DNA from: Cerasicoccus arenae
GTDB taxonomy: Bacteria > Verrucomicrobiota > Verrucomicrobiia > Opitutales > Cerasicoccaceae
Direction: 5' to 3'
Assembly: GCF_014651635.1 (NCBI RefSeq)
Contig: NZ_BMXG01000018.1
Location: 1-64,000 of the forward strand
Length of the DNA: 64,000 nucleotides
How positions within the stretch are numbered: the first letter of the stretch is position 1; the number at the start of each line of letters is the position of its first letter. The notes below the pieces were generated by a model. The model was not told the origin of the DNA and searched no databases. It saw only the letters and a list, made by a program, of their open reading frames with translations. The translations under genes were made by a program, and so were the position numbers. Positions 16,204-54,142 of this stretch are shown here, one piece after another.

Positions 16204-16773
16204 ATGGAGGATTCCCAACCGCGCGCACTGCTGCCCTGCCCTTACCCTAAATTGTTCCCGTCACAGCTCAACCGAGACGATCAATTTTTCATGCAGCTTG
16301 CCTATAATCAGGCCATTGACGCCTGGCGCGCAGATGAAACCCCCATCGGAGCCGTCATCGAGTTCAACGGCGAACCCATCGCCCACGCCTTCAACCGTGT
16401 TGATGCGACCAAGGACCCCACTGCACATGCTGAGATGCTCGCCATTACCAAAGCGGCCAACTTCATTGGCGACTGGCGCCTCAACGAATGCCGCCTCTAC
16501 GTGACTAAGGAGCCCTGCCCCATGTGCGCCGGTGCCAGCATCATGGCCCGCCTCAAGGAGGTCGTTTTCGCCGTCCCTGACCCCAAAATGGGCTACCTTG
16601 GCGGCGTCTTGGAGGCCCACGCGACGCCATCCCTCAACCACCGCCTCAATGTCCGCTCCGGCATCCTCGAAGATCAATGCCGCGAACTCATACAGGCCTA
16701 TTTCCGCCTAAAACGCGTTCAATCAAAGAATGCCCATGTCCCAAACGCCATTGACGAAGATCAACTGACCTAA
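16204..16773 (+). CDS. tadA: tRNA-specific adenosine deaminase
   Basis: Zinc deaminase that converts the wobble adenosine of tRNA-Arg(ACG) to inosine. The catalytic pattern is intact: HAEMLAI supplies the histidine ligand and proton-shuttle glutamate, and PCPMCAGA supplies the two cysteine ligands. The start at 16204 gives 189 residues, about 25 more at the N-terminus than minimal TadA, and a later start at the internal Met of FFMQLAYNQA (16291) is possible. A TTG-started frame from 16123 looks unlikely. It converges on the methyltransferase gene. Confidence 0.88.
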   Translation: MEDSQPRALLPCPYPKLFPSQLNRDDQFFMQLAYNQAIDAWRADETPIGAVIEFNGEPIAHAFNRVDATKDPTAHAEMLAITKAANFIGDWRLNECRLYVTKEPCPMCAGASIMARLKEVVFAVPDPKMGYLGGVLEAHATPSLNHRLNVRSGILEDQCRELIQAYFRLKRVQSKNAHVPNAIDEDQLT

Positions 16774-16868: not shown

Positions 16869-18041
16869 TCATCCCGCAGGAGCGGTACTGGGTGAACAAA
16901 TCGACCTAACTGGCAGCACGCTCAATAGCGGCTCCAACAGATCCTGCGCTAGATGGCGAACCACTGGGACCGCCACGCCGTCACCGATCAAATGATACCC
17001 CTCATTGTAGCGCTTTGGCAGTTTATAACTGTCCGGCAGCCCCATTAAGCGAGCGGCTTCACGAACCGACAGCAAACGCGTGCGAACACTGGGGCCGTCG
17101 ATAAAAACCACGGTTTGACGACTAGACCCCCCCCCCGGCGTCCGCAGACAACCCGCCACTCCATCAAACCTTACCTCTGCCCGTTGACGGCGTTGACCAC
17201 CTTCACCCATACGTGTTCGTCGATAAATCGTCCCCACAACGCCCCCCCCTCTCTCCTGCGCCAAGGTGACCTTAGCACGGTTTTTAGCGTCCATCAGCAC
17301 GAGCAAATGTTCCGTTTCTTCGGCTGAATGCCAAGTGACTCCGGACGGCTCATCTTCGATGGCATCAGCGAGATCGATGCCCCGGGCTGCAGGCGCGGGC
17401 AAACGCCACCAGACCCAATGCTGGCGATCTGTCGAATCGATGTTAGCATAAGCCAATTGTAACGCAGGCGGGTGGAACGGCATTTGTGCCTCCTCCAACA
17501 CAAGAGCGGACGGAATCTTCGCATCTCGCCGAACCGCAACAAGAAACAAACGCGGACGCGACTGCGGCAAGTAATGCACGGTGTCGATTAACAATGCGCC
17601 AAAGCGATAGCCACCACTAGACAACGCCTTTGCAAGTGCGGCAAAATCCTGCCCACAATGCGAAGTCAAAGCACCTGCCACGTTCTCCAGCACGATTAGA
17701 TGCGGCGCTCGGCCCTCTGCACCAAGGCGCTGCATGAGATTCCAAAAGCCCCAGAACGACCCCGACCGTGCACCTGCCAGCCCAGCCCCCCCCCCTGCGA
17801 GCGAGAGGTCTTGGCAAGGAAAAGAAGCCCAAGCGAGATCAGCCTGCCCAGGCAAATCAGCTGTCGCAACATCCTGCACAGGACGCGAATCAAGCAGTTC
17901 ATCAGCACCCCAGTTCAGGCGATAGGCGGCATTTTTCTTCGCATCACAATCGTTCGCAAAAAGAGGTCGCCAGTGCGGGCCAAGCCCCATACGCGCCATA
18001 CCACCACCGGCAAAAAATTCGTAGAAAAGGTGATGCGTCAT
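16869..18041 (-). CDS. DNA (cytosine-5) methyltransferase with three poly-G tracts
   Basis: C5-cytosine DNA methyltransferase of 390 residues, complete. Motif I FFAGGGMARMGL (9-20), motif IV SFPCQDLSLAGGG with catalytic Cys76, motif VI LENV (118-121), motif VIII QSRPRLF, motif IX LLSVREAARLMGLPD and motif X YHLIGDGVAVPVVRHLA are all present. Target site unknown. The coding strand carries G10, G8 and G10 runs, read as Gly-Gly-Gly at residues 83-85, 265-267 and 303-305; a one-base slip in any would truncate the enzyme. No restriction endonuclease is adjacent, so it looks like a solitary, possibly regulatory methyltransferase. It follows the HEAT-repeat gene by 34 nt and could be co-transcribed. 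Confidence 0.9.
   Translation of the reverse strand: MTHHLFYEFFAGGGMARMGLGPHWRPLFANDCDAKKNAAYRLNWGADELLDSRPVQDVATADLPGQADLAWASFPCQDLSLAGGGAGLAGARSGSFWGFWNLMQRLGAEGRAPHLIVLENVAGALTSHCGQDFAALAKALSSGGYRFGALLIDTVHYLPQSRPRLFLVAVRRDAKIPSALVLEEAQMPFHPPALQLAYANIDSTDRQHWVWWRLPAPAARGIDLADAIEDEPSGVTWHSAEETEHLLVLMDAKNRAKVTLAQERGGGVVGTIYRRTRMGEGGQRRQRAEVRFDGVAGCLRTPGGGSSRQTVVFIDGPSVRTRLLSVREAARLMGLPDSYKLPKRYNEGYHLIGDGVAVPVVRHLAQDLLEPLLSVLPVRSICSPSTAPAG
17127..17136. repeat. C10 tract in methyltransferase gene (residues 302-305)
   Basis: Ten consecutive C on the plus strand, G10 on the coding strand. It lies upstream of motifs IX and X, so a shift would remove the C-terminal catalytic lobe. Confidence 0.9.
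17242..17249. repeat. C8 tract in methyltransferase gene (residues 265-267)
   Basis: Eight consecutive C on the plus strand in the variable target-recognition region, immediately followed by a CT-rich stretch. Confidence 0.85.
17786..17795. repeat. C10 tract in methyltransferase gene (residues 83-85)
   Basis: Ten consecutive C on the plus strand just after the PCQ catalytic motif. A shift here would truncate the protein at about a quarter of its length. Confidence 0.9.
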
Positions 18042-18075: not shown

Positions 18076-19692
18076 CTATAGTTTGTTCATGTCGATCTCG
18101 ATGATCTCCCCTTGCCCGATCTCAGTGCGAATCCGTGGCGTCAGCGGATTTTTCGGGTTTTTCTCCACGAATTCACGAAGAATTTCATCGCGACGAGGGA
18201 ATTGGCGTTCACGTAGCATAATGACCACTGCGGTACGCTGCATCGCGATATCCTGATCTTCTAATGAGGCCGAAACCACCTCTGGCCAGCCTTCCAAACG
18301 CATGGTACTAATCGTCTCAAGTGCGGCAATCCGTACATCAACCGCCTCATCAAGCATCAAGTCATAGAGTAGCCCCTCCGCCTCTGCCCGTGGCTGTCGG
18401 ATGGCGAGCTGAACTAATGCGGCACGAACATCTGCATGAGGATTGTCAATCAGCCCGTCGATAATCTCGTCATTCACCAACTCGGGGTGCACATAGTATT
18501 GAGTCATGCCCATGGCCCGAATTTCCTGATTCGAGTCCATCAGGATACGCGCCATAATTTCTGGGTATTGCTCGGCCAAATCAAGCGAAACAAAAAGGCG
18601 CACGGCCTCCAACCGAAGCACTGAGCTGCGCAGCTCAGTGAGTGCTGGCGCAAGCGGCGCTGCGAGTCCCTCGTAATTACGAAGCATCTGAAGAAGGCGC
18701 TGTGCCTGATCCTGTGTCAATCGATCGGCGACCAACGCCTTGATCAGCCAATCCAGCTCTGGCGGCTCGCCAGTCCACCGAAAAAGCGACAAATGCGCCT
18801 CGGCAGCGATCTCAAGGTTATCCAATTGGGAAATCTGGCGCAGCAGTTCAATGCCCTCTGGCAAACCGCGTCTCCCCAACTCAGCTGTCAGGCGTAGTTG
18901 TGCGACAGTATCGTCACCCTCAATAATTTTCTGAGCCGGCTTAGTCCACTGCACAGGATTACCATAGCCAATTGCCAACGGAATTGCCTCCAGTCGAACA
19001 CCACGATCAGAATCGTCCAACATTTCAACAAAGACTTCAGGCGGCGTGGACAGGTTAAGGTTACTGCTATTGGTCAGGATGTTACGGCGGACCACGGCAT
19101 CTTCATCATGATAGGCACCCATCAATGCACGGCGCACTTCAGGACTCAGTGGACGATTACCGAAATCAGGGCGAATCATGCTCGCCATCTGCATAATGCT
19201 CATCATCTGCGGAATGATAGATGACACGGAGCGACGCACCTCGACATCCTCATCGGCGATGTGCAGCAAAACGGGCTCCACCGCCTCGACTGGCAACCCA
19301 TGTCGCCATTCGGCGATGGATACCACAGCCGCCCGACGTACGCGCGCATTGGGGTCATTCAACGCCTCAACCACCGCCTTTTTGGCCTCGTTGGCATGGT
19401 ATTTACTCAGCAGCATGACCGCGCCCACACGCATTTCCGCTTTGTCCGATTGCATGTCCGCCAACGCGCGTTGGATCGTCTCGCGTTCCTGCTGCGTTAG
19501 ACGCGGCTGCGCCATCAGTTCGGGCGGCAGCAGGTTACGAGGCAGTGAATTTTGCCGCTGCGCAGCCAGAGGCAAAACGCTGGCCAACAAGAAACCTCCC
19601 ACAAATAGCACTATACAAACGAATCGGGATGCGTGGAAAGAGGCACACAAAAATCCTTTCCGAAGTTTCCGTTCCTGTTTCAAAATGTGCAT
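18076..19692 (-). CDS. Secreted HEAT-repeat protein
   Basis: Exported alpha-solenoid of about 538 residues. A basic N-terminus and a signal peptide (IVLFVGGFLLASVLPLAAQ) precede many HEAT-like helical repeats with the pattern D-x-x-x-x-V-R-x-x-A (DPNARVRRAAVVSI, DEDVEVRRSVSSI, DSDRGVRLEAIPLA, DNPHADVRAALVQLA, DEAVDVRIAALETI). Such solenoids are protein-binding scaffolds. The ATG at 19692 starts 5 nt after the stop of the BatA-like gene, so the two are surely co-translated. The partner is unknown; the upstream gene product is the obvious candidate. Confidence 0.8.
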   Translation of the reverse strand: MHILKQERKLRKGFLCASFHASRFVCIVLFVGGFLLASVLPLAAQRQNSLPRNLLPPELMAQPRLTQQERETIQRALADMQSDKAEMRVGAVMLLSKYHANEAKKAVVEALNDPNARVRRAAVVSIAEWRHGLPVEAVEPVLLHIADEDVEVRRSVSSIIPQMMSIMQMASMIRPDFGNRPLSPEVRRALMGAYHDEDAVVRRNILTNSSNLNLSTPPEVFVEMLDDSDRGVRLEAIPLAIGYGNPVQWTKPAQKIIEGDDTVAQLRLTAELGRRGLPEGIELLRQISQLDNLEIAAEAHLSLFRWTGEPPELDWLIKALVADRLTQDQAQRLLQMLRNYEGLAAPLAPALTELRSSVLRLEAVRLFVSLDLAEQYPEIMARILMDSNQEIRAMGMTQYYVHPELVNDEIIDGLIDNPHADVRAALVQLAIRQPRAEAEGLLYDLMLDEAVDVRIAALETISTMRLEGWPEVVSASLEDQDIAMQRTAVVIMLRERQFPRRDEILREFVEKNPKNPLTPRIRTEIGQGEIIEIDMNKL

Positions 19693-19697
19693 CGTAT

Positions 19698-21869
19698 CTA
19701 CCGTAAGCCCAAGTTGCGTCGCCAAAACCATTCAATGCCAAATACCGCCAGTAAGGCCAGAAGAAACACCAGATTACGCGTCCAGTAGGTGCGCTCTTCA
19801 CGCAGCGGAACGCTTGTCGAAAGCCTTAGTTCATCGATGTTTTTTATTTCATTCCATGGATAGTAGCGCCCACCGGTGATCCGCGCAAGGTCGCGCAAAG
19901 CATTCTCCCGGAAGCGTAAATCCTCGTTTTCACGGCCAGACCGCCGCGCCGCAAAGTAAGCCGTGTGGGTCAGCAGTTCTCCATCAGGAAACGCGATTTG
20001 GTAGTCCACGCGGTATTCGCCAGGCCGGCCCAACAAAGCATCTCCAGCAAAACGGCCAGGGTCTGACGCCTCAGGAATCAAGTCCAGCTCGGGAAGAACA
20101 TCACCGCCGGGCGCAGTGATGGTTGCCCGGATACGCGCGTCCTCGGAAGGCCGAAAATCACTGCCGCGCACGTTAATATCCATCGCAACGGGGCTGCTCA
20201 GGTCAACCACTTCGCCTTGAATAGGCAGCTCGACACGTGGCTTTCCGCCAGTCGCCAACCAGGCAATTAATTGCTGCCAAAAGGCGCTGTGCTGCTCGTT
20301 TTCCCGATCACTCGTCAAGGCCCAGCGCCAGGTGCTCTCCGTACCCAGATAGGCCACACGGCCCGCACCGTAGGCATGGACGGTGAGCACCGGTAGGCCA
20401 GGTTGCTCTGTTTCCGCCGCCACACGTACGCCCAAAGACAGACCCTCGGGCTGGAAGAAAAGCGTCTCTGCGGGCAAATAAGGACCCGGCGGCAAGGACA
20501 GAACGCCTGCATCCGCATCGGAAAAAACCGGCTGCGTTGCCAGCTCGATTGGCGTGCGCTTCAGCACACGGCCCAGCTCGCCCTTGCGCACAGGCAACAG
20601 CGCACGGAGATCTTCCGGCATTTCGTTGGGATCGCCGAGAAAAAGCGCCCCCCCCCCCCGCAGCAGCAAGTAATCGCGCAGACCTTCACGCGCCTTCAGG
20701 GACAATTCTTTGACTGCCGATATATCGACCACCAACACCGCGTGTGGAAAGAAGGTTTCGCCGTCTTCTGGAAAGCCAGTCATCGCCTCCTCCATCGCAC
20801 CCTCTTCGCCAAAGCCCGAGCGATAAAAGCGCTCCGGCCCCGTCTGGATGATGCACTGGCGGGAAAGCTGATCATCGTCGCCAAGCGCCGCCTGGAGGTA
20901 GCGCCAGAACGGGCCAAGCCGTGCGCTGAGATAAAGCAGGCTCTGGTTCTTCGGCAAGGTGATGTCCACCCCGGCATAATCGAGATCATTGGCGCGGTTG
21001 TAGTCGCCTGACGCCGGATTTTTCAACATCGCCCGGTAAACTTGCAAACCCGGTGCCTCTGGGATAAAGCTGAAGCGGACTTGGCTCTCTTGCCCGGCAG
21101 GTAATTCAACTGGCTGGGACTCGATTAGCTCGTCTTCAGCGTAAAGCTGGATCTCTGCGCGACGGGTCTCATTAAAGCTGTTTGTAATGCCGATCCCCAA
21201 GTTGAGTGGGTCCCCAAGAGGGGCGTTTTCTGGCGCATCGGTGAACCGGAGGGCGAGATCCCCGGGGGGGGTAGGTTCCCCAATACCCACCACTGAAACT
21301 GGGATGCCAACGTCTCGCCAAGCAACGGCAGCGGCGGGCAAGCGTTCGCCTTGCAGGCTAATGCCGTCGCTAAGCAGTAATGCGCCGCCGAGCTGAGAAT
21401 TTTCCGGCGAACGCGAATTCAACAGCTCCGACAAACCGTTGCCGAGGGCGGTATCGCCATCGCGGACATTCCAATCCGCCCCCGCCTGCCAGTTGGTGGC
21501 AATGGAGGAAGGCTCCAGCGTATAGCGCTCAGCTAATCGCGCCCAAAGGTTGCCTGACTCTTCCGGCGCAAGCTCCTCCTGAAGCAGGCCAAGGCGGGTC
21601 TGGCTTTTCGGCAAATCAGCGGTCTCCATGCTCCGGGAAACGTCCCCCACGATCGCAACCGCAAACTGGCTGGCGTCCGGGTATTGCCGCGAAAGGAAGG
21701 GATTGAGCAGCAGCAGGACGATTAAGATTACGCCCAATGTGCGTAAAACGGTAAGGCTCCACGCAGCGTTCTTTGTGACCGCCGGTCGTTTCCATAATAT
21801 CCAAGCCACCACGCACGCGCCCGCCAGCACAATAGCCAGAGGCGGAAATGGGGTGTCGAAGCCAGTCAT
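19698..21869 (-). CDS. BatA/VWA-like large membrane protein
   Basis: Envelope protein of 723 residues: two N-terminal membrane helices (PLAIVLAGACVVAWILW, LGVILIVLLLLNPFLS), a VWA-like beginning FAVAIVGDVSRSMETAD in which the MIDAS is degenerate (DVSRS for DxSxS), a middle glutamine-amidotransferase-like fold around HAVLVVDIS...YLLLRGGGALFLGDP, beta-sandwich domains, and one C-terminal helix. This architecture is common in Verrucomicrobiota and Planctomycetota near MoxR/DUF58 modules. It carries a G12 run (residues 404-407) and a C8 run in coding sense. It leads a tight unit with the HEAT-repeat gene. Exact function unknown. Confidence 0.7.
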   Translation of the reverse strand: MTGFDTPFPPLAIVLAGACVVAWILWKRPAVTKNAAWSLTVLRTLGVILIVLLLLNPFLSRQYPDASQFAVAIVGDVSRSMETADLPKSQTRLGLLQEELAPEESGNLWARLAERYTLEPSSIATNWQAGADWNVRDGDTALGNGLSELLNSRSPENSQLGGALLLSDGISLQGERLPAAAVAWRDVGIPVSVVGIGEPTPPGDLALRFTDAPENAPLGDPLNLGIGITNSFNETRRAEIQLYAEDELIESQPVELPAGQESQVRFSFIPEAPGLQVYRAMLKNPASGDYNRANDLDYAGVDITLPKNQSLLYLSARLGPFWRYLQAALGDDDQLSRQCIIQTGPERFYRSGFGEEGAMEEAMTGFPEDGETFFPHAVLVVDISAVKELSLKAREGLRDYLLLRGGGALFLGDPNEMPEDLRALLPVRKGELGRVLKRTPIELATQPVFSDADAGVLSLPPGPYLPAETLFFQPEGLSLGVRVAAETEQPGLPVLTVHAYGAGRVAYLGTESTWRWALTSDRENEQHSAFWQQLIAWLATGGKPRVELPIQGEVVDLSSPVAMDINVRGSDFRPSEDARIRATITAPGGDVLPELDLIPEASDPGRFAGDALLGRPGEYRVDYQIAFPDGELLTHTAYFAARRSGRENEDLRFRENALRDLARITGGRYYPWNEIKNIDELRLSTSVPLREERTYWTRNLVFLLALLAVFGIEWFWRRNLGLR
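20648..20659. repeat. C12 tract inside the BatA-like gene
   Basis: Twelve C on the plus strand encode Arg-Gly-Gly-Gly in the minus-strand gene. A shift would remove the C-terminal half, including the last membrane helix. Confidence 0.9.
21264..21271. repeat. G8 tract inside the BatA-like gene
   Basis: Eight G on the plus strand, read as Pro-Pro in coding sense (TPPGD). It is the one coding tract of eight or more that is C-rich in the coding strand. Confidence 0.8.
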
Positions 21870-31339: not shown

Positions 31340-32680
31340 ATGAGCGAAGCCCTTACTATTCAGCCTTTTACCCGTCCTGTGCGCGGGCGCGTCACCCTGC
31401 CCGGCTCCAAGAGCATTACAAACCGGGCTCTGATCTTGGCCGCACTTTCCCAAGAGTCACTCACCCTCGAAGCCGCGCTATTCAGCGATGACACCCGCAT
31501 CATGGCTAATGCACTACGAGCACTAGGCATTACTGTGAGCGAAGACGAGGCAGGCAAAACGATCTTCGTCAATGGTTGCGGTGGAAGCATTCCTAACCCA
31601 GAGGCCGAGATTTACGTGGGCAATGCTGGCACCGCTGCTCGCTTTCTCACCGCCATGCTTTGCCTTCGTGAAGGCGGAGTCTACCGTATGGACGGTTCCG
31701 CCCCAATGCGCAAACGTCCGATGCGTGGCCTGCTCGACGCGCTTGTGACCCATGGTGCCGCTACTGTCGAATACCACGGTGAACCCGGATTTTTCCCTTT
31801 CACTCTACGTACCAATGGTGTACCTGGCGGCGAACTGTCTGTGGATGCTTCCGCGAGCAGCCAAATTCTGTCGGCCCTGTTGATGGTTGCCCCCCTCGCC
31901 AAGGGTCCGCTAACCCTTACTCTGGCTGGCGAAACGGTCTCTCACCCATTCATCGGCATGACGCTCGCCATGATCGAGCAGTTTGGCATCCAGCCGCAAG
32001 GCAAGTCGGATACCGGCCCATTTCCCTTCACTGGCGGCGGACGTTACTACTACCCTCGCCCAGCCTATGTAGTCGAGCCAGACGCCACTGCAGCGAGCTA
32101 CTATGCCATGCTTCCATGGGTTATCGGCGGCTCACTTACCCTTGAGCGTTGCTATGGCATCGGGCTTCAGGGAGACATTCACTTCATCGAAATATTAGGC
32201 CAACTAGGCGCGTTTTTCAATGTCGATGGCGCAGACCTCGTGGCCGAATTTCGGGAACGTAAACAGGGGGGGGTGACTGAGGATTTCAACGCCATATCTG
32301 ACACCTTCTTAACTTTGGCCGCCATCACCCCGTTACTTGATGGCCCGACGACGATTTCAGGCATCGCCCACACTCGCCATCAGGAAACTGATCGCATTGC
32401 GGCCATGGCCACCGAGCTACGCAAGCTCGGACAGCGGGTCGATGAAACCGATGACAGTATGACTGTCCACCCCGACTTCACCGCAATCGTCGCCAAGACC
32501 AAAGACTCACCATTAGCCATCGACACCTACGAAGACCACCGCGTCGCCATGAGCTTCGGTATCCTTGGTAGCCATGATCTTCACGGCGACGGTCGCCCTT
32601 GGTTAACTATCAATGACCCCAATTGCTGCGCTAAAACTTTCCCAAACTTTTTCGACGTGCTCAAGGCGCTAAGAGGCTAA
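31340..32680 (+). CDS. aroA: 3-phosphoshikimate 1-carboxyvinyltransferase (EPSP synthase)
   Basis: Shikimate pathway enzyme joining PEP to shikimate-3-phosphate. Substrate-site motifs: PGSKSITNRALILAA (lysine and arginine contacts), YVGNAGTAARFLTAML (PEP loop), MDGSAPMRKRPMRGLLDAL, SSQILSALLM, and HRVAMSFGILG near the C-terminus. Length 446, typical. A G8 run at 32266-32273 encodes Gly-Gly-Val at about residues 310-312, so slippage would inactivate an essential enzyme; this argues that tract length here is constrained. Ends before a bidirectional terminator. Confidence 0.94.
   Translation: MSEALTIQPFTRPVRGRVTLPGSKSITNRALILAALSQESLTLEAALFSDDTRIMANALRALGITVSEDEAGKTIFVNGCGGSIPNPEAEIYVGNAGTAARFLTAMLCLREGGVYRMDGSAPMRKRPMRGLLDALVTHGAATVEYHGEPGFFPFTLRTNGVPGGELSVDASASSQILSALLMVAPLAKGPLTLTLAGETVSHPFIGMTLAMIEQFGIQPQGKSDTGPFPFTGGGRYYYPRPAYVVEPDATAASYYAMLPWVIGGSLTLERCYGIGLQGDIHFIEILGQLGAFFNVDGADLVAEFRERKQGGVTEDFNAISDTFLTLAAITPLLDGPTTISGIAHTRHQETDRIAAMATELRKLGQRVDETDDSMTVHPDFTAIVAKTKDSPLAIDTYEDHRVAMSFGILGSHDLHGDGRPWLTINDPNCCAKTFPNFFDVLKALRG
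32266..32273. repeat. G8 tract inside aroA
   Basis: Eight consecutive G on the coding strand at codons for Gln-Gly-Gly-Val. It is the only long tract inside an indisputably essential biosynthetic gene in this window. Confidence 0.85.
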
Positions 32681-51975: not shown

Positions 51976-53640
51976 CTACTTAGACGTCACAGCTCCTCGC
52001 CTCTGCCGCCAAATCGCGAGGGCAAGGAAAACGCCCCCCCCCCATAGCACCCAGTCGCCATAGCGCACATAAAAGGTCAACTGGCCGCGCCAGATTGGGT
52101 CATAGGTCAATGAAAAGGTCTTGCTGCCTCGTTGATAAACACGACCATCTTCCCCTGTCAGCACATCACGAACGTTGCCATATTCATCGATCCAGCCACT
52201 CCAGCCATTATTGCCGCAACGGACAACTGGCCGTCGAGTCTCCACCGCGCGCAGCACGGAATGTGCGGCATGCTGGTAAGCCCCCGCTTCCTCGCCATAC
52301 CAACCGTCATTCGTCACCACGACGATGAAATCAGCACCTTCTCGGGCCACTTCACGACCCAAGCGAGCAAAAATATCTTCGTAGCAGATCAGCACACCGG
52401 CTTTCCAAATTTGACCGTTCGCCTCGACCGGAAGCGGACGGGAATGGTCACCGGGCCTCAAATCGATGTCCAGCGGCACCACAGTCTTAATGAAAAATAG
52501 GATATTACGCAGAGGGATATATTCACCGAAAGGGACGAGGCGGCGTTTGGCATAATGGCCATCGCGAAGGCCATTCTCGGGATCAATATAAAAGACTGCA
52601 TTAGCCCACTCTCCGTTGGGAAACTGCGCCAGCGCACCGGTGATTAATGGAATACCGATGCCCGCGATACCATCGGCGATCCACAACTCCATGTTGCGGT
52701 CGCCCTTGGCGTTAATAATGGGATACGGCGGCGCGGCTTCAGGCCAAAGTATCAAGTCCGGCTTGGGCGTGGAAATGACAGCACGCTGAGTTTCCTGTTG
52801 GAGCACATCGAGGGACTCCTGAACCATCTCCTGCGTCCACTTCAAATCAGCTGGAATCCAAGGCTGGACAGCAGCAACATTGAGCATTGGCTCGCGATCT
52901 CCTCCTTGAGAAACCGTTTTTACGTAAATCCAAACCGATGCGAACACCATCGCCAATGCCACGTAAAACTCTGGGCAAAACCGCCAGCGCAGTTGCAGAC
53001 GCGGGCGCGAGGGGATGTTGGCCAGAGCTTCAGAATCAGCATTTTCAGTTTCGGCCTCAGCCTTGGCAGGCTCCAGAAAAAGACGTTGAATGTAGACCGC
53101 AAGGGTCAGGTTGAAGAAGATGAGAATGAACGACACCGCATACTGGCCGCCGTACTCCGCCGCCTGTAGCATGGCTGGGCGCAGCCATTGGCTCGCGGCC
53201 AACGGGAGCCACGGAAAGCCCGTCAGCACCCATGTTTTCAGCCATTCCAGAATCACCCAAAAACCCGCGAGCCCCAGCAGGGTAAGCAAGCGCTGGGGAA
53301 AGCTGCGCGACATCGCCGGAGGCAGCAGCCAACCAGCCATCAACGCCCAACTCATCGGAAAAAGCGCCAACAGGAATGACAGTATGATCAAACCCACTGA
53401 GCCCATCGGCGGATGCACATGGCGCAGCCAAATGATCAGCAGAAACCAGCTCAGCCAGAATCCTAAAAAAGCGCATATTGCCAACCGGCGACGCGGTGGG
53501 CGCGTAAACATCCACAGCAGCAGCGGCAAGGCGAACAGATAAGCTGCCTCCGCCACATCCCAAGGCGGGAACGCCACAAAATGCAAAAGGCCCGTGCAGA
53601 TACCCGCCAGAGCGCCAATCAGCCAAGGGCCTTTTTTCAT
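51976..53640 (-). CDS. lnt: Apolipoprotein N-acyltransferase
   Basis: Inner-membrane enzyme adding the third acyl chain to lipoproteins, 554 residues. N-terminal membrane bundle of about seven helices, then a nitrilase-fold domain with the catalytic triad Glu in LILWPEAAPPYP, Lys in KRRLVPFGEYIPLR and Cys in GVLICYEDIFARLG. The ATG at 53640 (MKKGPWLIGALAG) is clear; an upstream frame would overlap the lipoprotein gene. A C10 run (52034-52043) encodes Gly-Gly-Gly in the last membrane helix, about 20 residues before the stop. Confidence 0.92.
   Translation of the reverse strand: MKKGPWLIGALAGICTGLLHFVAFPPWDVAEAAYLFALPLLLWMFTRPPRRRLAICAFLGFWLSWFLLIIWLRHVHPPMGSVGLIILSFLLALFPMSWALMAGWLLPPAMSRSFPQRLLTLLGLAGFWVILEWLKTWVLTGFPWLPLAASQWLRPAMLQAAEYGGQYAVSFILIFFNLTLAVYIQRLFLEPAKAEAETENADSEALANIPSRPRLQLRWRFCPEFYVALAMVFASVWIYVKTVSQGGDREPMLNVAAVQPWIPADLKWTQEMVQESLDVLQQETQRAVISTPKPDLILWPEAAPPYPIINAKGDRNMELWIADGIAGIGIPLITGALAQFPNGEWANAVFYIDPENGLRDGHYAKRRLVPFGEYIPLRNILFFIKTVVPLDIDLRPGDHSRPLPVEANGQIWKAGVLICYEDIFARLGREVAREGADFIVVVTNDGWYGEEAGAYQHAAHSVLRAVETRRPVVRCGNNGWSGWIDEYGNVRDVLTGEDGRVYQRGSKTFSLTYDPIWRGQLTFYVRYGDWVLWGGGVFLALAIWRQRRGAVTSK
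52034..52043. repeat. C10 tract near the 3' end of lnt
   Basis: Ten C on the plus strand, Gly codons at about residues 533-536 of Lnt. A slip would alter only the last ~20 residues, part of the C-terminal helix. Confidence 0.85.
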
Positions 53641-53647
53641 AAGCCGT

Positions 53648-54142
53648 TTAGGAATCACCCTGCGATGGGAAATCCTTGAGCAAGACGGGGATTTCATCCG
53701 AAAGCTTTCCACCTACCAAAGGAGAAGTAACGGACCACAGCGACGCTCCATTCTTCATCGCCGTAAGCGTTAAATAGAATGCATTCCCTGCGTTCGCTTG
53801 ATTACTGCCGCCAATCGCCCCTGACGGTTGTTTGCTGCCCAAAACCTTTCCCTTTTCCCAACTGCCATTAATCGTGAAGTCAGCCGCCGAGGCGCTGTCC
53901 ACCACGGTGTAACCCTTCGCTTCAAGCGTTGATCCGACGATTTTGCGAACATTTTCATCGGTGCGTTCAGAGGGCGGGCGACTACCGTCTGTATCTGCAA
54001 AGTCTGGCGACACATAGCACTTGCTCGACGAAGACAGGACCTTGGAACCAGAAGAAGAGGAATCGACCTGCACCGTTTCACAGCCTCCCAAACAAAAAGC
54101 CAAGATGAACACGATCGAAGATAGCTGCAATGAAATGGACAT
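53648..54142 (-). CDS. Small lipoprotein
   Basis: Predicted lipoprotein of 164 residues. The signal peptide ends at the lipobox LGGC (Cys20), followed by a Ser-rich linker and a compact domain with DENVRKIVGSTLEAKGYTVVDSASAADFTI, a pattern seen in DUF4136-like lipoproteins. It precedes lnt by 7 nt, so both form one unit; its own maturation would use that enzyme. Function unknown. Confidence 0.78.
   Translation of the reverse strand: MSISLQLSSIVFILAFCLGGCETVQVDSSSSGSKVLSSSSKCYVSPDFADTDGSRPPSERTDENVRKIVGSTLEAKGYTVVDSASAADFTINGSWEKGKVLGSKQPSGAIGGSNQANAGNAFYLTLTAMKNGASLWSVTSPLVGGKLSDEIPVLLKDFPSQGDS

Follow-up and report, generated by a model that had tools for sequence, protein, structure and literature searches.

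Do three long guanine runs inside one DNA methyltransferase gene make that gene a phase-variable switch? The gene, a solitary cytosine methyltransferase of Cerasicoccus arenae, lies in the 64,000-nucleotide stretch analysed here (positions 1 to 64,000 of contig NZ_BMXG01000018.1, hereafter the window; contig C18 among the 63 that make up a 4.13-Mb draft), and a preliminary description of this DNA proposed such a switch. We prefer another reading, to which we give a probability of about 0.7. The gene would encode an orphan methyltransferase of mobile restriction-modification (R-M) descent, its runs would be local cases of a genome-wide homogenisation, and its inactive (OFF) state would be a by-product. 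The lineage-specific build-up of G/C homopolymers is a more interesting finding than the runs in this one gene.

Three G runs in a C5 methyltransferase gene

The open reading frame (ORF) matches PF00145 in a profile search (E 6e-35), exceeds the curated cut-off of TIGR00675, and has M.HhaI as its best solved-structure relative (E 2e-21). All six C5 methyltransferase motifs (I, IV, VI, VIII, IX and X) are found, including PCQ, ENV and QxRxR. By its families and these motifs the ORF is a predicted functional DNA methyltransferase (MTase below), and with no nuclease adjoining it, its description as a solitary C5 DNA methyltransferase holds. The gene, its motifs and its runs are located as follows:

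16869..18041, minus strand: orphan C5 cytosine DNA methyltransferase ORF, 390 codons (PF00145, TIGR00675, M.HhaI)
18000..18017, minus strand: motif I, FFAGGG, S-adenosylmethionine binding; its glycine (Gly) triplet is GGT GGT GGT, with no run
17811..17819, minus strand: motif IV, PCQ, with the catalytic cysteine
17786..17795, minus strand: run 1, G10, residues 83-86 (LAGGGAG), directly after motif IV
17679..17687, minus strand: motif VI, ENV
17550..17564, minus strand: motif VIII, QSRPR
17242..17249, minus strand: run 2, G8, residues 265-267 (RGGGVV), not conserved in congeners
17127..17136, minus strand: run 3, G10, residues 302-305 (TPGGGSSRQ), glycines largely conserved across the family
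17058..17078, minus strand: motif IX, RLLSVRE
16974..16985, minus strand: motif X, GDGV

The G10, G8 and G10 runs lie on the coding strand as the preliminary description had them; that they are in frame adds no information, because this follows from the ORF being open. They are slippable repeats in which a change of length breaks the frame. Gain or loss of one or two bases leaves a product of 114-141, 278-290 or 305-332 amino acids, and all such frameshifts stop before motif X, with motif IX lost too. Each shift of this size, at any of the three runs, is predicted to be null, which agrees with the earlier claim of several independent OFF routes. Overlapping G8 words number 33 in the window against 2.0 expected. 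The G runs of the window are far beyond chance, and this excess is a property of the whole genome, not of the MTase gene.

Build-up of G and C runs across the genome

We compared four Cerasicoccus genomes, one per species: C. arenae (G000), C. frondis NBRC 105381 (G001), C. maritimus NBRC 105382 (G003) and a further congener, G002. Whole-genome pattern counts give 715 G/C runs of at least 8 bases in C. arenae, 260 in C. frondis, 103 in C. maritimus and 15 in G002. For runs of at least 9 bases the counts are 455 (110 per Mb, in 4.1 Mb), 94, 52 and 5 (in 5.1 Mb), respectively, with at most 70 in other members of the same genome sample. A runs of at least 9 bases number only 31 in C. arenae. Among 289 Verrucomicrobiota genomes, one of the 288 others, G117 from another family, is denser per Mb than C. 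arenae. No description of such a G/C run build-up was found in the literature searched, which was limited to open-licence papers.

G117 (family f52) holds 556 G runs of at least 9 bases in 3.0 Mb, and its f52 siblings G139 and G152 are also raised, at 150 and 106. Within Verrucomicrobiota, such accumulation of poly-G seems to have had more than one origin.

Per-gene statistics were taken from a 464-kb sample of C. arenae with 363 genes. Up to length 6, each added base lowers the G/C run count there about fivefold, and from 7 onward the spectrum flattens, so that C. arenae departs from geometric decay at 7-8; G002 has no such flattening. Most runs of at least 8 bases (70 of 91) lie inside called genes, split evenly between G-sense (35) and C-sense (35), and the runs follow the GC-skewed strand like ordinary short runs do. 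About 15% of the sampled genes carry such a run, housekeeping ones included; among the run-bearing genes are aroA, lnt, glnE, ribBA, the pyrophosphatase gene hppA, pilB/gspE, a rarA-type ATPase gene, ggt, priA and ilvD. Three or more runs occur in 5 of the 363 genes against 0.9 expected, the MTase gene being one of several.

Comparison with G002 suggests how the runs arise. Among 17 runs of at least 7 bases with an aligned G002 orthologue, nine lie on Gly or proline (Pro) residues that are kept without an indel, three are gapless with changed residues, and five fall at gaps or outside the orthologue. Gly triplets written entirely as GGG make up 15 of 90 in C. arenae, where single-codon use predicts 0.26; G002 has none among 77. 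In C. arenae, GGG is used at about 5% of the Gly codons beside short G stretches and at 50-100% of those within long ones, which is not so in G002. Past a length threshold, then, conserved Gly/Pro codons are homogenised synonymously, and this is how most of the runs form. The codon alignments and counts show a genome-wide process of codon-run purification, which turns Gly or Pro codon runs into pure G or C runs while leaving the protein mostly unchanged. Its likely driver would be replication slippage or misalignment on near-homopolymer stretches in this lineage. Loss of a mismatch-repair gene was considered as the cause and set aside, as mutS and mutL are present and open in C. arenae and its congeners, though their function may be weakened.

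Within the window, further runs lie in other genes:

20648..20659, minus strand: G12 run in a 723-residue gene (19698-21869); the Gly run is kept in G002 with mixed codons
21264..21271, minus strand: C8 run, C on the coding strand, at a conserved Pro-Pro of the same gene (19698-21869)
32266..32273, plus strand: G8 run inside aroA (31340-32680)
52034..52043, minus strand: G10 run inside lnt (51976-53712)

Two housekeeping genes are out of frame at a run in this assembly. In priA (L057:12157-14495; C1:272157-274495) the N-terminal and helicase parts stand in different frames on either side of a G10. A G16 run lies just past the 3' end of priA. In a gene read from its sequence, without a family search, as ilvD (dihydroxy-acid dehydratase; L049:11444-13351; C1:111444-113351), a C16 lies near the 3' end and the orthologue matches in two frames, the last ~30 residues matching in another frame than the rest. 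Systematic frame breakage at runs was tried and rejected. A coding-frame likelihood test gave a frame change at 24% of runs (29/120) versus 20% of random positions, and 17 inspected frame-break candidates were mostly gene junctions, gene starts or intergenic, with clear breaks only in priA and ilvD. A run of at least 8 bases lies within the last 70 bases of 11 of the 22 contig ends checked, compared with 1.4% of random windows; the 11 are the starts of C1, C2, C4, C7, C9, C10, C12, C14, C15, C18 and C19, with runs of 8-14. Longer runs are probably where the assembly breaks. Because assembled run lengths cannot be trusted, neither the breaks in priA and ilvD nor the open MTase frame prove a state in cells.

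Conservation and descent of the methyltransferase

Orthologues of the MTase, 70-72% identical, are present in all three congeners, and the reading frame is intact in each of the four species. The Gly triplets at runs 1 and 3 are likewise kept by all four. At both sites C. frondis has a G8, and G002 and C. maritimus have mixed Gly codons and no run; run 2 is found in C. arenae only. The preliminary description had named homologues with mixed GGN codons and no homopolymer as a result that would count against its proposal; two of three congeners show just this, and C. frondis shows G8.

The C. frondis orthologue (L040:5983-7143) also has an extra G8 at codons 4-6, just past the start codon. The stretch right behind the start codon is a position typical of phase-variable runs.

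The neighbours of the MTase gene are a cysK-like PALP enzyme and the following two genes, which bears out the earlier statement that no restriction endonuclease is adjacent:

16213..16773, plus strand: tadA/guanine-deaminase-like (tadA-type) deaminase (PF14437/PF00383)
18076..19731, minus strand: HEAT-repeat protein (PF13646), the conserved upstream neighbour

The gene order is common to G002, where the HEAT-repeat orthologue adjoins the MTase, and ORF sizes around the MTase come in the same order in C. maritimus and C. frondis (L039/L040). Other relatives, 58-64% identical, are carried by plasmids of Burkholderia and Pseudomonas and by phages of Burkholderia. On both plasmids examined, a DUF4928 gene directly follows the MTase, and both the Burkholderia plasmid and phage Menos have a gene for a very-short-patch repair (Vsr) or mismatch endonuclease downstream. 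DUF4928 repeatedly stands directly 3' of MTases of this C5 group, sometimes with Vsr after it (L112:2492-4982, L113:2492-4569, L107:8598-10830). From this position it is likely an unnamed restriction partner with a nuclease role. DUF4928 was not found in any of the four Cerasicoccus genomes; a genome with a 42% identical MTase relative (G029) has it adjoining that MTase. Two metagenome relatives (L041/L042) are adjoined by GIY-YIG nuclease genes, and a GIY-YIG partner was not found in Cerasicoccus in a search that had no working positive control. An Eco29kI-type target, CCGCGG, was considered for the MTase and is unproven, because a solved-structure search with the metagenome GIY-YIG neighbours returned no relative.

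With no nuclease adjoining the MTase and DUF4928 absent from the genus, no cognate nuclease was found for it, as expected of an orphan, and the locus lacks the cognate endonuclease that defines a Type II R-M system. Kinship to such systems is nevertheless evident from the 58-64% relatives with DUF4928 and Vsr and from the GIY-YIG neighbours of the metagenome relatives. Homology, synteny and the missing partners point to an orphan from a mobile Type II R-M lineage that Cerasicoccus has retained at a single place in the chromosome.

Weight of the readings and comparison with known systems

In the reading we prefer, the MTase runs would be local cases of the genome-wide process. Slippage at them may at times yield a truncated, inactive enzyme, in which case a small fraction of OFF cells would probably be present, arising incidentally and not from a contingency switch under selection. 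Several observations weigh against this. The mismatch-repair genes mutS and mutL are present and open. The C. frondis orthologue has three G8 runs and one G7, and three of its four Gly triplets are G8, compared with 1 of 50 Gly runs in a 400-kb sample (P ~3e-5); in C. arenae, three of four MTase Gly triplets are runs, compared with 18% genome-wide (P 0.02). This enrichment is partly explained, but not removed, by the high GGG use of the gene outside its triplets (28-31% of Gly codons in C. arenae and C. frondis versus 14% genome-wide in C. arenae), and the gene may have a tendency of its own to carry runs. The enrichment in C. frondis would suit a true phase-variable epigenetic switch, in which slippage toggles cytosine methylation and selection keeps the runs. 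So would the three runs, each null when shifted, and the lack of a partner nuclease, because of which the OFF state would not be lethal; elsewhere, m5C MTases without a nuclease regulate genes (PMC8706393). We consider such a switch unlikely all the same. Two of three congener orthologues have no runs, the ORF is open in every species compared, like runs sit in about 15% of sampled genes including housekeeping ones, and coding-sense poly-C is as common as poly-G, versus 5% in Campylobacter phasomes (PMC6321876). A dedicated switch may exist but is not the favoured reading in a genome with 715 runs of at least 8 bases, since the runs of the gene belong mainly to the lineage-specific G/C homopolymer build-up. 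What survives of the original proposal is the solitary MTase, its three slippable runs and the null outcome of frameshifts. A bolder idea is doubtful to a similar degree, namely that one Cerasicoccus species has acquired a process by which hundreds of long G/C runs are built and kept up all along its chromosome; a large share of its genes, essential ones too, would then switch frame randomly, with the MTase, run-enriched in C. frondis as well, adding a heritable methylation switch.

The elevated GGG use of the gene and its relatives on plasmids and phages could also mean that the runs are codon choice only, in a GGG-rich, laterally acquired gene without unusual instability. This seems improbable, as it would leave unexplained the runs in vertically inherited low-GGG genes and the threshold behaviour of GGG, which is not seen in G002, and the density of runs is far above the codon-use prediction (15 of 90 Gly triplets versus 0.26). 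Least credible, and hardly to be entertained, is an origin of the runs in sequencing or assembly artefacts. It could draw on the contig ends, half of which lie at a run, and on the broken frames of priA and ilvD; but nearly all genic runs keep their ORF open, about half of the orthologue-aligned runs lie on conserved Gly/Pro residues, and a congener has runs at the same MTase sites. Exact lengths may err, but the existence of the runs does not.

Should the runs match the instability that poly-G of this length shows in known pathogens, C. arenae, a marine bacterium, would present a natural extreme of frameshift instability, spanning housekeeping and dispensable genes. Set beside its near-run-free congener (5 runs of at least 9 bases in 5.1 Mb, compared with 455 in 4.1 Mb), it allows a direct test of what causes homopolymers to build up in bacteria. 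Moreover, poly-G in a methyltransferase does not by itself indicate a phase switch, and a count of the runs in the genome as a whole has to come first.

The MTase resembles the phasevarions of Helicobacter, Neisseria and Campylobacter in having homopolymer runs within a DNA methyltransferase ORF whose frameshift gives a null product. Those phasevarions, however, stand out against few runs per genome, whereas C. arenae has about 700 runs of at least 8 bases and two of three congeners have no MTase runs. In Campylobacter, 77 genomes hold 1944 runs of at least 7 bases, poly-G/C is dominant, about 77% of runs lie within ORFs, only 5% have C on the coding strand, and Gly triplets turning into 9G have been proposed as one origin of runs (PhasomeIt, PMC6321876). 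C. arenae shares with this phasome the dominance of poly-G/C, the location of runs mostly within ORFs and the Gly-triplet origin. It differs in that its sample has about 260 runs per Mb, half of them poly-C, and in that the run-bearing genes are often housekeeping genes. As an enzyme, the MTase is akin to the orphan C5 MTases Dcm, VchM and M.Hpy99III (PMC8706393), which have the common C5 motifs, no adjoining nuclease and retention across related species. Unlike the Dcm family proper, it has its nearest relatives in DUF4928/Vsr or GIY-YIG modules. The plasmid and phage MTase-DUF4928(-Vsr) modules (NZ_CP019671, NZ_OK086355) contain an MTase 64% identical over 94% of its length; in contrast to them, the four Cerasicoccus genomes have the MTase only.
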